Shown here one piece after another: positions 9,273 to 64,000 of a stretch of DNA of 64,000 nt. The DNA is from Streptomyces olivochromogenes (GTDB taxonomy: Bacteria > Actinomycetota > Actinomycetes > Streptomycetales > Streptomycetaceae): positions 62,001-126,000 of the forward strand of contig NZ_KQ948463.1 in the NCBI RefSeq assembly GCF_001514115.1, written 5' to 3'. Under the pieces are notes generated by a model that had not been told where the DNA came from, ran no database searches, and worked only from the letters and a program-made list of their open reading frames with translations. Positions within the stretch are counted from its first letter, which is position 1. Every line of letters starts with the position of its first letter. The position numbers and the translations under genes are program-made.

Positions 9273-10424
9273 TCAGGCCACCGACCCGATCCGCCGCGCC
9301 GGGACCGACGTCGCGTCGTGGTGGATCGGCGTGTGTGCCCCCGTGAGCGACACCCCGCTCCCCCCGCGCCGGTTGGCCACGATCTCCGAGGCGATGGACA
9401 GGGCCGTCTCCTCCGGAGTGCGGGCGCCCAGGTCGAGGCCGATGGGGGACCTGAGGCGCGCCAACTCCAGCTCGGTGACGCCGACTTCGCGCAGACGGTC
9501 GTTGCGGTCCAGGTGCGTGCGCCGGGAGCCCATCGCGCCGACGTACGCGACCGGAAGCCGCAGCGCGAGGCGCAGCAGCGGTACGTCGAACTTGGCGTCG
9601 TGGGTGAGGACGCACAGGACGGTCCGGGCGTCCACCTCCGTGCGCTCCAGGTACCTGTGGGGCCACTCGACGACGATCTCGTCGGCGTCGGGGAAGCGGG
9701 TGGCGGTCGCGAAGACCGGGCGGGCGTCGCACACCGTGACGCGGTAGCCGAGGAACTTGCCCATGCGGACCAGCGCCGACGCGAAGTCGATCGCGCCGAA
9801 CACGATCATGCGCGGGGGCGGCACGGACGACTCGACGAGAACCGTGAGCGGCGCTCCGCAACGAGAGCCCTGCTCTCCGATCTCCAGGGTGCCGGTGCGG
9901 CCCGCGTCCAGGAAGGCGCCCGCCTCGCCGACCACCGTGCGGTCCAGCTCGGGATGGGCGCCGAAGCCGCCCTCGTACGAGCCGTCGGGACGGACGAGCA
10001 GCGCCCGGCCCCGCAGTTCGGCGGGACCGCCGACGATCCGCGCGACCGCGGCTGCCTCCCCCCTCGCGGCGGCGGCCAGCGCGGAGCCGAGCACCGGCCG
10101 GGCGGGGTCGCCCGCCCGGACCGGCGTGACGAGGATGTCGATGATGCCGCCGCAGGTCAGACCGACGGCGAAGGCGTCCTCGTCGCTGTATCCGAAGCGG
10201 TCAAGGACACTCTCGCCGTCCTCGAGCGCCTGCCGGCACAGTTCGTAGACCGCGCCCTCCACGCACCCGCCGGAGACCGAGCCGATCGCCGTGCCGTCGG
10301 AGTCGACGGCGAGTGCGGCGCCGGGCCGGCGGGGCGCGCTGCCGCTGACGGCCACCACGGTGGCCACGGCGAAGTCGCGTCCCTGCTCGACCCACCGGTG
10401 CAGCTCTTCGGCGATGTCCAGCAT
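9273..10424 (-). CDS. xdhC: XdhC/CoxI-family molybdenum cofactor maturation protein
   Basis: A 383-residue protein. The N-terminal XdhC_CoxI domain (about 12-80) has VSGSAPRRPGAALAVDSDG and the conserved SGGCVEGAV. The C-terminal half is a Rossmann domain (about 200-360: PPPRMIVFGAIDFASALVRM, then CDARPVFATATRFPDADE and VGAMGSRRTH). XdhC binds molybdenum cofactor, promotes its sulfuration and delivers it to xanthine dehydrogenase. It is the last gene of the leftward xdh operon, 55 bp after the permease, with a GGAGACC site before the ATG. Within the Rossmann part the usual glycine-rich loop reads VFGAIDFASAL, slightly atypical. Confidence 0.88.
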   Translation of the reverse strand: MLDIAEELHRWVEQGRDFAVATVVAVSGSAPRRPGAALAVDSDGTAIGSVSGGCVEGAVYELCRQALEDGESVLDRFGYSDEDAFAVGLTCGGIIDILVTPVRAGDPARPVLGSALAAAARGEAAAVARIVGGPAELRGRALLVRPDGSYEGGFGAHPELDRTVVGEAGAFLDAGRTGTLEIGEQGSRCGAPLTVLVESSVPPPRMIVFGAIDFASALVRMGKFLGYRVTVCDARPVFATATRFPDADEIVVEWPHRYLERTEVDARTVLCVLTHDAKFDVPLLRLALRLPVAYVGAMGSRRTHLDRNDRLREVGVTELELARLRSPIGLDLGARTPEETALSIASEIVANRRGGSGVSLTGAHTPIHHDATSVPARRIGSVA

Positions 10425-60106: not shown

Positions 60107-61630
60107 TCAGCCGACGGCCTGGCAACTGGCCGTGTTGAGGGTGAAGTCGCGCGCGGCCGAGTTGGCCCCGGTCCAGGAACCGACGAAGCCGAAGGTGAAG
60201 GTGCCGTTCGCGGTGACGGTCTTGTTGTAGTCGGCGGCGGTGGCCGTGACGTGGGAGTCGTCCTGGGTGAAGGTACCGTCCCACATCTGGCCCACGTGCT
60301 GGCCGTCCTTGAAGGTCCAGCCGAGGCTCCAGGTGGCGAGGGCCTTGGTGGAGGTGACGGTGACGGTGGCCTGGAAGCCGTCCGGCCACTCGCTCACGAT
60401 CTCGTACTTCACCCGGCAGTCCGGCGCGGCGCTCTTCGGCGAACTCGTCACCCCGCCCTGCTTCCCGGCGGGCGACGAGGACTCGCCCTGGGCCTCCTGA
60501 TCGGAGTTGCCCGCCGGACGCGAGGTCGAGTCCGCCACCGCGGGCGAGCCCGCCGTCGCCGTCCCCGATCCCGAACCCGAACCCGAACCCGACTTCGTCT
60601 TCGAGCCCGAGGGGAGGGAGGGGCCCGGGTCCGCAAGGGACTGCCCGTCCGTCGCCTCGCCCTGCGCGGCGTTCGCGTCGCCGCCCTTCGAGCCGCCGAA
60701 GGGCATCAGCGAGACCGTGAGCGCGAGTGCGGACACGAGGACGGCCGTGACCAGGATCCCGGTCCGGCCGATCCGGGGCCGGACCGGCTTGCCCTCGTCC
60801 AGCCCCGTGTCCACCGCCGCGTCCGTGCGTCCGCCGATCATGCCGGCCTCGGCGGCCCGGCGCCGCCGTTCGAGATACGCGAGGCCGCCCCAGCCGATCA
60901 CACCGCTGGAGAGCGCCGCGGGCAGCCCGCCGCCGTGCAGCCGCAGACAGGCGGCGGCCTCCGCGCACTCGACGCAGCGCGCCAGGTGCCGGGAGAGGTC
61001 CTCGGGCGTCTCGGCGCTGGGTGAGCGGGTGACCGCGTCGAGGAGCCGCGCGTAGCTGCGGCAGTAGGCGTCCATCGGCGTGTCGAGGTGGTTGCGGTGG
61101 CAGCGGTCCCGGAACAGCACCCGCACCTGGGCGAGTTCGGTGGCCGCGGCCGCCGGATCGAGACCGAGCCGCCGGGCCACCGCGGACATGGGCAGCGACT
61201 CGACTTCGGCCAGCCACAGCAGAACGGCGTCCGGCTCCTGCATGTCCCGGAGGCCGCGCAGCGCGAGCGGGCGGTGCAGCGGCGGTCCGACGTAGCGGGC
61301 GGCCTTGTCGGAGTGGAGCCACAGGCGCAGGTCGGGGTCGAGCCGATGGCCGAGCCCGTTCGTCTCCCAGGCGGCGGCCACGGTACGGACGGAGGCCAGC
61401 AGCAGCGGAATGCGGGGCAGCCTGAGCGCCCGGCGTCCGGTACCGGTACTCTTCGATGCCGCGGTGGCGGCGCGCAGTTCGTCGATGCCGTGTGTGAACG
61501 CCTCGGTCGCCAGCTGCGTGGCCGAGGCCGAACCGGACGTGCACAGATCGGCGTACGACAGGACCGCGTCCCAACACTCCGAGAGCAGCGCGGCCTCGGC
61601 GGCGTTCTGGGGGGTCGGCAGGTCAGGCAT
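60107..61630 (-). CDS. Membrane protein joining sigma/anti-sigma-like region to external CBM2
   Basis: A 507-residue protein. The cytosolic N-terminus (1-240) resembles a degenerate sigma factor: a helical region-2-like part and a region-4-like HTH (LPMSAVARRLGLDPAAAATE). It is followed by an anti-sigma-type zinc motif, HLARCVECAEAAACLRLHG. One membrane span (GILVTAVLVSALALTVSL, about 290-308) leads to a Ser/Gly-rich linker and a C-terminal CBM2 domain (about 405-507: YEIVSEWPDGFQATVTVTST, SLGWTFKDGQ, FTFGFVGSWTGANS), bounded by two Cys that should form a disulfide. CBM2 binds cellulose, chitin or xylan. It thus looks like a one-protein sensor of insoluble polysaccharide. ATG 61630 has GGAG seven bases upstream. 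Confidence 0.8.
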   Translation of the reverse strand: MPDLPTPQNAAEAALLSECWDAVLSYADLCTSGSASATQLATEAFTHGIDELRAATAASKSTGTGRRALRLPRIPLLLASVRTVAAAWETNGLGHRLDPDLRLWLHSDKAARYVGPPLHRPLALRGLRDMQEPDAVLLWLAEVESLPMSAVARRLGLDPAAAATELAQVRVLFRDRCHRNHLDTPMDAYCRSYARLLDAVTRSPSAETPEDLSRHLARCVECAEAAACLRLHGGGLPAALSSGVIGWGGLAYLERRRRAAEAGMIGGRTDAAVDTGLDEGKPVRPRIGRTGILVTAVLVSALALTVSLMPFGGSKGGDANAAQGEATDGQSLADPGPSLPSGSKTKSGSGSGSGSGTATAGSPAVADSTSRPAGNSDQEAQGESSSPAGKQGGVTSSPKSAAPDCRVKYEIVSEWPDGFQATVTVTSTKALATWSLGWTFKDGQHVGQMWDGTFTQDDSHVTATAADYNKTVTANGTFTFGFVGSWTGANSAARDFTLNTASCQAVG

Positions 61631-61833
61631 GGGGGGCTCCTGCATCAACTGCTTCCAGGTGCAACGTCTAGAAACGTCTGAACAACGTGATCGTCAACTC
61701 ACCCTCTGTACAGGGGAGTTGAGGCCGTCTCAACGACGGGGCCCGAGCCTTTCACGCTTTCCACACAACTGACAAGCGAGGTATTCAATTAGCGTGGCAA
61801 GCGGTTGCGGCGCCGTGCGTCCGAACGCGCGCA

Positions 61834-61874
61834 GCCTCCCTCCCGCCCTATGGAAAGGGATACGGAAGGGAGGC
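61834..61874 (-). terminator. Possible hairpin terminator after the radical SAM gene
   Basis: GCCTCCCT (61834-61841) pairs with AGGGAGGC (61867-61874), with an inner CCCT/AGGG pair. It lies 37 bp past the stop of the radical SAM gene. No U tract. Confidence 0.45.
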
Positions 61875-61910: not shown

Positions 61911-63257
61911 CTACGGAACCTTCGGTCCGGCCGCTTCCGTCACCGCGGGTTCCCGCGCCGGGAGGCTGTCCATGAAGGAGCTCACCGAGAAGACCGCCTG
62001 GCCGGGTCCGGGCGGGCCGTATCCGGGCGGCGAGGACAGCCCGAAGTCCTCCATGGTCGACCGGTAGGCCTCCAGCAGCCGGATGTGGTACTCCAGCGGC
62101 GCGCCCTGGGGGTTGGCCTTGCCGAGCGGGGTCGTGGGCTCCGGGCACCAGGTGGTGAAGCGGGGCGTGATGCCGTGCGACATGAAGAAGCGCAGCCCCT
62201 CGGTGGTGGAGGCGATGGCCTCGTCGACGGTCGTGAAGCCGAACGGCTCCGCCATCTCCACGCCGGCCACGAAGTTGGGGATCACGTTGCGCGCGCCGAA
62301 GACCTCCGCGGAGTCGAGGATGCGCTTGTGCCACTCGTCGCGGCCGACATAACGCTCCTTGCCCGGGCAGTACAGCTCGAACAACCGCCGGTCCCACACC
62401 TCGTAGTTGGGGTGGTAGATCTGCACGCCGTAGTCCTTGAACCGCTGCACGTCGTCGCGCGGCAGCGCCTGTGCGACGACCTTGCCGATCCAACGCCCCG
62501 GGAAGCGCTCCTCGATGGCCTTGGCGTAGTGGCCGTAGAAGTCGGCCTCGTCGCGCCCCTGCAGCTTCGAGGTGATCGCGCCGCCGGTGAGGGTGTACGC
62601 GGTGGAGGCCTTCGCCGTGTCGTACCGGTCGATGATCTCCAGGGCTTCGAGGACCTCCTCGACGTCCTTCACCCCGGTGTACGGGCGCCCCGCCGCCTTG
62701 TGCTGGCGCCAGTTGTGGTTGATGTCGCAGTACTGGCACTCCTCCTTGGCGCCGAAGTACTGGCAGACCCGGAAGACGGTGAGGTAGATCAGATAGCCCC
62801 ACTGGATGGTGGGGGCGACCTCCATCACGGACTTCCCGTTGGAGAGCGTGTGCCGGTAGTACTCGGGCATCGGGGGCACGCCGACGTCGGCGATCCGCTT
62901 CCCGTCGAGGTAGAGCCCGAGCACCCCTTCGTCGTCCGCGGCGACGCGATAGGGCGAGGCGGGATTGACCCGCACGGACACCACGGTCCGCCGCAGGTCG
63001 TACGGCCCACCCGTGAGGATGATCTCCTCGGGCGGGCGGCGCAGGGCGGCCTCGCCGAGTTCGGGCAGGGTGCCGTGGTCGAAGGAGAAGATGAAGTACG
63101 ACTTCGGCTTGACGTCACCGTCCTCGTTGTCGGAGAGCGCCGACTCGTCGAAGGCCACACCTCCGCGGAGCAGGTCCTCCTTGAAGACGGCCTCCCGCGG
63201 TACGTGCGGGAACCGCTCCATCAGATCCTCGACCAACGCGGTGCGGCTGCCGACCAT
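61911..63257 (-). CDS. Atypical radical SAM protein (C-x8-C-x2-C)
   Basis: A 448-residue protein. After about 160 residues of mixed N-terminal domain comes YLTVFRVCQYFGAKEECQYC (158-177). The three cysteines are spaced C-x8-C-x2-C instead of the common C-x3-C-x2-C; the last pair with a following aspartate still looks like a radical SAM cluster loop. A TIM-barrel-like pattern follows (TAYTLTGGAITSKLQGRDE with the GGE-like GG, VVAQALPRDDVQRFKDYGVQ, NVIPNFVAGVEMAEPFGF). The reaction is unknown. ATG 63257 is preceded by AGGAGAAC. No obvious partner gene is adjacent; the right neighbour is a tandem repeat. Confidence 0.75.
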   Translation of the reverse strand: MVGSRTALVEDLMERFPHVPREAVFKEDLLRGGVAFDESALSDNEDGDVKPKSYFIFSFDHGTLPELGEAALRRPPEEIILTGGPYDLRRTVVSVRVNPASPYRVAADDEGVLGLYLDGKRIADVGVPPMPEYYRHTLSNGKSVMEVAPTIQWGYLIYLTVFRVCQYFGAKEECQYCDINHNWRQHKAAGRPYTGVKDVEEVLEALEIIDRYDTAKASTAYTLTGGAITSKLQGRDEADFYGHYAKAIEERFPGRWIGKVVAQALPRDDVQRFKDYGVQIYHPNYEVWDRRLFELYCPGKERYVGRDEWHKRILDSAEVFGARNVIPNFVAGVEMAEPFGFTTVDEAIASTTEGLRFFMSHGITPRFTTWCPEPTTPLGKANPQGAPLEYHIRLLEAYRSTMEDFGLSSPPGYGPPGPGQAVFSVSSFMDSLPAREPAVTEAAGPKVP

Positions 63258-63569
63258 CCCGTTCTCCTCGCTCCCGACCCGTTCCCGACTCGTTCAAGTC
63301 CCCGTGCTCGACTCCTCACGGTATGCCCCTGCCTGTACGTCAGCCGTGCCGGGTCCCCTCGCGGCGCGCGATACGCACGTCCGACGGCAGCGCCGGGCCG
63401 GGTTCGGCCGCACCCCAGGCGACCGCGAGCGGCACGGCCCCGACCCAGACTCCGAGGGCCCCGCCGGAAACGCCCGTACGGATCTCCACCCCCCGAAGCC
63501 CCCTCCGAGAGACAGCACAAGCAGCGCCGTCGCGCCGAGTCCCCCACGGGCGCCCCGAAACGGGCCCCG
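63258..63569. other. Intergenic region upstream of the radical SAM gene
   Basis: About 310 bp with no convincing gene. Open frames on the minus strand here are extensions of the repeat to the right. The promoter of the radical SAM gene should lie in the first 100 bp. Confidence 0.45.
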
Positions 63570-64000
63570 AGCACAGACCCAGGTGCTGGCGCGCCCCAGA
63601 GCCCCAAAAGCCACTCCGGGACACAGCCCCGAGCGTGTACCCAACGGGCAACCCCCGAACACGGGCCGACGCACAAGCCCGGGAACAGGCCCGGGGCACA
63701 GCCCTGGGTGCGGGGCGGGGGGCACAGCCCCGGGTGGGGGCCGGGGGCACAGCCCCGGGCAGGGGACCAGAGGCACACGCCCAGGTAGGGGACCAGGGAC
63801 ACAGCCCCGGGCAGGGAACCGGAGGTACAGCCCCAAGGGCGAGCCCAGGGCGCAGCCCCAAGTGGAGGTCTCAGGGGCACAGGCCCAGGCAGGTGGCCGG
63901 GGGCACAGCCCCGAGAGCGGCTCCGGGGCGCATCCCCAAGCGGGGCTCCCAGGGTCAAGTCCCGAGCGCGGGCCCGGGGCGCAGCCCCAAGCGGGGATCC
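63570..64000. repeat. Degenerate 26-bp-period tandem repeat, runs off the window
   Basis: The core GGGGCACAGCCCCGGG recurs with variation every 25-27 bp: CACAGCC or close variants start near 63622, 63648, 63672, 63697, 63723, 63748, 63774, 63800, 63826, 63851, 63878, 63904, 63929, 63955 and 63980. At least 15 units are present and the array continues past 64000. Each unit is itself a GC-rich dyad (GGGGC...GCCCC). Long minus-strand ORFs over it (PGLCP, PGAVPP patterns) are produced by the repeat and are not called as genes. Confidence 0.85.

Follow-up and report, generated by a model that had tools for sequence, protein, structure and literature searches.

The radical SAM gene and its locus

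The window, by which we mean the whole stretch of 64,000 nucleotides of Streptomyces olivochromogenes DNA that was analysed, contains a gene on the minus strand whose product of 448 amino acids is referred to below as the query. The gene, its parts and its downstream neighbour are as follows, with positions counted along the window.

61911..63257, minus strand: radical SAM gene P0001, 448 aa, group A of the NF045502 family (ORF with an ATG start)
62727..62765, minus strand: codons of C165-x8-C174-x2-C177, CQYFGAKEECQYC, putative [4Fe-4S] cluster loop (sequence and orthologue conservation)
62358..62402, minus strand: codons of E286-V-W-D289 ... P298-G-K300, conserved in the family, putative element of the SAM or substrate pocket (invariant columns)
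63264..63269, minus strand: GAGGAG, likely ribosome-binding site 6 nt upstream of the start codon (63264-63269 in plus-strand numbering; sequence)
61835..61873, minus strand: GC-rich hairpin 3' of the stop codon, possible transcript end (folding)
60107..61648, minus strand: downstream neighbour, 513 aa, with a C-terminal CBM_2 domain, across a gap of 262 bp (frequent synteny in Streptomyces)

The post-stop hairpin gave -32 kcal/mol over the 76 nt folded (z -2.56); it has no T-run and was absent from the output of the terminator scan. Upstream, the gene is preceded by a long gap that contains a GC-rich tandem repeat with a 26-base unit in about 18 diverged copies, extending from window position 63719 past the end of the window (L111:15720-16200). 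The genome from which the window comes (11.67 Mb in 98 contigs) contains one match to the radical SAM protein, and the closest named record, from Streptomyces diastatochromogenes, showed 99% identity across the whole protein.

Family assignment and the cluster loop

We compared the query with family models, solved structures and its own relatives. The NCBIfam model NF045502, "variant_rSAM", matched the query with 173.5 bits, well over its cut-off of 125, which bears out the initial annotation of the gene as a radical SAM protein. Nothing in this model excludes the query; it describes a domain family, and its description reads merely 'radical SAM protein'. The Pfam family PF04055 (Radical_SAM) reached 20.1 bits, below its own cut-off of 29.5, and the assignment therefore rests on NF045502 and the family profile. 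TIGR04043 (NitD) matched weakly, with 31.2 bits where its cut-off is 303.7. Five branches of the family were named, A (that of the query, also called group A) to E, each of which formed a clade with high support (99-100 / 95 or more). The LipS2 and LipA models of NCBIfam gave no listing for the query at E values up to 1 and none for the members of branches A and E scanned at 0.001, while LipS2 was matched weakly by branches B, C and D.

A search of solved structures with the single query sequence returned nothing useful. The profile of 16 diverse members, by comparison, matched the PDB sequences of biotin synthase (3.2e-06) and ThiH (6.6e-06), followed by weaker matches to HydG (0.0013) and PylB (0.0015). 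The AlphaFold model of the query, for which 48 close sequences served as input, was poor (mean pLDDT 47.3, pTM 0.52), and the structural matches are thus supportive only. Foldseek placed lipoyl synthase on top with an E value of 2.1e-03, gave no match at E <= 0.001 and listed unrelated barrels, such as homocitrate synthase, from rank 6. In a second structural comparison with the same poor model, the first 43 rows were radical SAM proteins by title, with Z from 9.0 down to 7.1. These rows include LipA, HydG, LIAS, HydE, MqnE and PylB, with lipoyl synthase and HydG leading at Z 9.0; unrelated barrels start at Z 7.0, and values near 8-9 are modest.

The query is very probably a radical SAM enzyme. 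Its family appears to share the scaffold of LipA/LipS2/BioB/ThiH/PylB, putatively a partial TIM barrel as in the superfamily, to which some 130 N-terminal residues peculiar to the family are added. The query thereby joins a family already modelled by NCBI as 'variant_rSAM', in which an x8 loop is ordinary. Among the literature matches listed, covered by their titles and the starts of their abstracts and with most subscription papers outside the search, we found no paper that tests the reaction of a family member. For radical SAM proteins with CX8CX2C, the matches listed were one title on NMR of Fe-S clusters and others mainly on plant cysteine-rich (DUF26) proteins, none of these latter titles naming radical SAM.

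The C-x8-C-x2-C motif lies at C165, C174 and C177, as the initial annotation stated, and the invariance of these residues among orthologues had been proposed there as the check that could refute it. In an HMM search of the collected loci that made no use of the motif, all three cysteines were kept in 132 of the 133 distinct group A ORFs, and the lone exception, in L021, represents just the C-terminal part of a broken gene copy. Each of the eight residues C165, C174, C177, E286, D289, C297, K300 and C371 is likewise kept in 132/133, every miss falling in one of the two pieces of that broken copy. The annotated loop therefore withstood this check, and the conservation of E286, D289 and K300 along with the three cysteines supports its interpretation as well. 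In the 16-sequence alignment, in which identity outside the query's own branch is 20-28%, 17 columns are invariant and three of them are C165, C174 and C177.

The spacing of the loop does differ from C-x3-C-x2-C, the usual though not required arrangement in radical SAM proteins, but it is no oddity of this protein, although the initial annotation reads as though it were. Outside group A, x8 is the commonest spacing, found in 36 of the 49 distinct ORFs; the others have x9 (3 ORFs: L210, L160, L233), x6 (6 ORFs: L229, L232, L234-L237), x5 (3 ORFs: L159, L207, L231) or x3 (1 ORF: L209). When these 49 ORFs were placed on the family profile, the second and third cysteines, K300 and G226 were present in all of them, E286 and P298 in 48 and D289 in 43. 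E204, which is invariant in the 16-sequence alignment, is lost in the x3 member, in 4 of the 6 x6 members and in 3 of the 36 x8 members. The loop thus ranges from x3 to x9 while K300 and E286 stay, which indicates a single family with an elastic loop before CX2C. Such elasticity is useful to know for motif-based annotation, since the Pfam Radical_SAM model falls below its own cut-off on the query.

The departure from CX3CX2C could also be taken as the mark of a different cofactor or cluster type and hence of new chemistry. We consider this exceedingly improbable, because the whole range from x3 to x9 occurs among members of a single family, in which the second and third cysteines, E286 and K300 are kept almost throughout, and because longer loops are known elsewhere. 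The spacing may vary among radical SAM proteins, with CX5CX2C in HmdB and CX14CX2C in QueE, the latter having the canonical motif with one extended loop, and ThiC also departs from the CX3CX2C spacing (PMC4389238).

Distribution, selection and gene context

The group A gene is patchily distributed. Among 36 same-genus relatives, 21 had a match, two of which were broken copies (one, in G022, consists of fragments; the other, in G027, is split over two frames). A class sample, in which scoring was limited to the four best candidates of each genome, gave a match in 24 of 39 other same-genus genomes; the two samples have one genome in common besides the window's own. The gene was not found in the remaining 15/36 and 15/39, and these absences, together with the broken copies, show that it is dispensable. 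By genus, the class sample contained a match at E <= 1e-10 in 3 of 137 genera, two of them weak. Matches with about 60% identity were present in 10 of 14 genomes from a second family within the order. Copies also occur on two Streptomyces plasmids, with 90.5% and 86.1% identity, and no relatives were found in the viral contigs scanned.

Selective constraint was estimated from five orthologue pairs of the branch, the window protein itself lying outside these pairs. Within Streptomyces, for L071 against L004, L010 and L188, dN/dS was 0.041/0.40, 0.048/0.35 and 0.075/0.57, and the two pairs reaching to the second family gave 0.35/0.60 and 0.35/0.58. The patchy distribution, the two broken copies among 36 relatives and the orphan position described below would also suit a radical SAM protein that has degenerated and is no longer catalytic. 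This reading appears very unlikely, given that dN was smaller than dS in all five pairs, that the three cysteines, E286, D289 and K300 are kept in 132/133 ORFs with the misses confined to one broken copy, and that the gene is also carried on the two plasmids.

Two copies of the gene are accompanied by small ORFs. In L196 (9207-9371), a 54-aa ORF right behind the gene repeats the radical SAM C-terminus and is 70% identical to that of the query. In L189, a Streptomyces plasmid, a 193-aa ORF with no Pfam match (9314-9895) overlaps the end of the radical SAM gene; it was not noticed beside other copies.

To describe the neighbourhood of group A, we used 80 loci, 79 of them titled Streptomyces, and the window's own, 81 in all. 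The gene with the CBM2 domain stood at +1 in 70 of them and was the sole fixed adjacent gene in most loci. An alditol-oxidase-like gene (named by eye) lay one to six genes upstream in 64, at varying distance. By eye, no CBM2-domain gene was seen in the 15 loci L188-L202, which showed about ten different neighbourhoods. Nor was one seen at the four second-family loci, whose gene names, also read by eye, revealed no constant partner. None of 15 marker proteins of branches B, D and E was present in the 20 group A loci tested, and no nitrilase cluster was noticed by eye at group A loci. No Rfam family, including the TPP riboswitch, matched at the query locus, and the upstream sequences of differing loci had no shared block among the alignment parts listed. 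A function for the query based on its neighbours was rejected: the CBM2-domain gene is 262 bp off and was unseen in L188-L202 and the second family, and it is probably not a partner. As far as tested, the group A gene is an orphan, as the initial annotation had it. The hope, also expressed there, that neighbours in other genomes would give clues to the substrate was fulfilled for other branches; for the query's own branch, the loci tested gave none.

The family as a whole is wider than group A. Among 396 genomes from across the phylum, NF045502 matched in 108 at E <= 0.001, 51 of them over the cut-off. Four members of branch C scored 393-416 bits with TIGR04043, so that this branch is NitD, the MSMEG_0568 family of the Nit1C nitrilase cluster; genetic work on the role of the Nit1C cluster in cyanide use reportedly exists. 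In branch B, MetY and CBS genes lie beside the radical SAM gene in 6 of 7 loci (L148, L149, L241-L244), which often also carry MetX and MetW together with a gene resembling cystathionine gamma-synthase. At the seventh locus, L147, all of these methionine and transsulfuration genes are missing. In branch D, the gene is followed by a DASS-family transporter, CysK/M and ThiS in all six loci (L150-L152, L205, L206, L228) and preceded by Sat and CysH in three of the six, some contigs ending early. The families at branch B and D loci were named by HMM, and the CysK/M protein scored just below its subfamily cut-off (342.1 vs 344.15). To our knowledge, no substrate has been shown for branch B, C or D.

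Branch E was found in 4 of the 197 genomes of its class. In all four loci (L153, L203, L215, L216), genes for YkoF, YkoE, YkoD and YkoC adjoin the radical SAM gene and a TPP riboswitch precedes the operon. A small unknown domain is encoded next in the row and is fused to the radical SAM C-terminus in L215 and L216. Of the four genomes, none had ThiC (controls were positive in 13/14) and none had ThiE over the cut-off, with two weak partial matches, while all four had a match to thiamin pyrophosphokinase, three of them over the cut-off. From this gene content, we infer that the branch E genomes look like thiamin auxotrophs that import thiamin. The operons of the sister branches, for methionine and transsulfuration, cysteine synthesis and TPP-regulated thiamin uptake, give testable substrates for the family.

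Two further members were noted in other surroundings. On an Agrobacterium pusense plasmid (L187:5729-9131), a radical SAM gene with CX8CX2C overlaps the gene before it, whose product has a Radical_SAM domain and a B12-binding match just below the cut-off. In L217 (5349-10717), a CX8CX2C member sits in an apparent biosynthetic cluster, judged by eye, with a methyltransferase, an aldo/keto reductase and an ATP-grasp protein.

Proposed reaction and comparison with known systems

The position of group A in the tree bears on which of these contexts might speak for the query. With four long-branch rows left out, A and E formed a clade (99/96) inside a group of A, B and E (98/95), and a clade of A and B excluding E was weakly rejected (p-AU 0.024). 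When the four long rows were included, the deep forks, the A-E join among them, were not resolved, and even for the reduced tree the program warned that both A and E have long branches, so that their grouping may be spurious. A and E also have in common an insertion after G332, which reads GxExAxPxGFxTVDEAxAS in both the query and L137. Branch E may be the branch nearest to the orphan group A.

The boldest reading for group A follows from this clade and insertion: the enzyme would act on thiamin or a thiamin-like heterocycle, as branch E presumably does, given its four riboswitch-led YkoF/E/D/C loci and genomes that have thiamin pyrophosphokinase matches without ThiC or ThiE over the cut-off. 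We regard this as improbable for the query, because the A-E join depends on the rows included, no TPP riboswitch lies near the query and its identity to L137 is only 28%. Nor was the YkoE family PF09819 matched in any of the 75 same-genus genomes, whether or not they carry the gene. Co-occurrence with YkoE was accordingly rejected as a link to thiamin (2 of 14 controls were positive), since a family absent from all 75 cannot separate carriers from non-carriers and lends the link no support. It is likewise improbable that A and E together make up an undescribed family of radical SAM enzymes acting on thiamin or thiamin-like heterocycles. If it were true, the branch E form would serve thiamin auxotrophs in salvage or repair and be controlled by TPP, and the Streptomyces form would be a free-standing accessory enzyme, perhaps directed against thiamin analogues or acting on a thiamin-derived metabolite.

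The other branches point elsewhere. The enzyme might modify an amino-acid-type sulfur or nitrogen metabolite, in line with the MetY and CBS genes of branch B, the transporter, CysK/M and ThiS genes of branch D and the nitrilase clusters of NitD, and A, B and E do fall on one side of a branch in the reduced tree. However, the marker genes were near none of the 20 group A loci tested, and the grouping of A with B to the exclusion of E was weakly rejected as noted above. This reading is rather unlikely.

The reading that we prefer is that the query is a stand-alone, single-cluster radical SAM enzyme acting on a small metabolite, and we consider it probable. In the proposed mechanism, C165, C174 and C177 would hold one [4Fe-4S] cluster, to whose free iron SAM would bind. 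A general housekeeping donor would supply an electron, and SAM would be cleaved to methionine and a 5'-deoxyadenosyl radical, which would take a hydrogen atom from the small-molecule substrate and so set off a rearrangement, a lyase reaction or an oxidation. Compared with x3, there are five more residues between C165 and C174, and these would be a loop insertion on the same scaffold with the same cofactor. Both the cluster and the cleavage of SAM are predicted for the query. The substrate is likely to be a small metabolite rather than a peptide, protein or RNA, and a small heterocyclic or a sulfur or nitrogen metabolite is the most likely kind.

That the query has a single cluster is quite probable. 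It contains five cysteines in total, 165, 174, 177, 297 and 371, and of the two conserved in group A besides those of the loop, C297 adjoins the PGK element while C371 lies a long way from it in the sequence. Lipoyl synthase and biotin synthase need a second set of cysteines for an auxiliary cluster that gives sulfur. The query has no such LipA/BioB-type set, C297 and C371 being its only further cysteines, and because there is no further conserved pair or triad that could hold a second cluster, its branch is probably not one of sulfur inserters.

Compared with its nearest relatives, the query is an ordinary member of NF045502, in which most of the relatives examined have CX8CX2C as it does. 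The NitD members have the same conserved residues and CX8CX2C or CX9CX2C; those aligned carry a C-terminal CxxCxxC, whereas the query has no cysteine after 371. The branch B members aligned end in CxxC, and the query is without this C-terminal motif as well. Branch E differs in its low identity to the query and in the TPP riboswitch and YkoFEDC genes of its loci, which the query's locus is without. Among characterised proteins, LipA/LipS2, biotin synthase, ThiH, HydG and PylB were matched best, be it by sequence profiles of the family or by the structural model, and the query differs from them by its X8 loop and its N-terminal part. QueE and HmdB, which otherwise belong to different families, resemble the query in having a longer first loop before CX2C.
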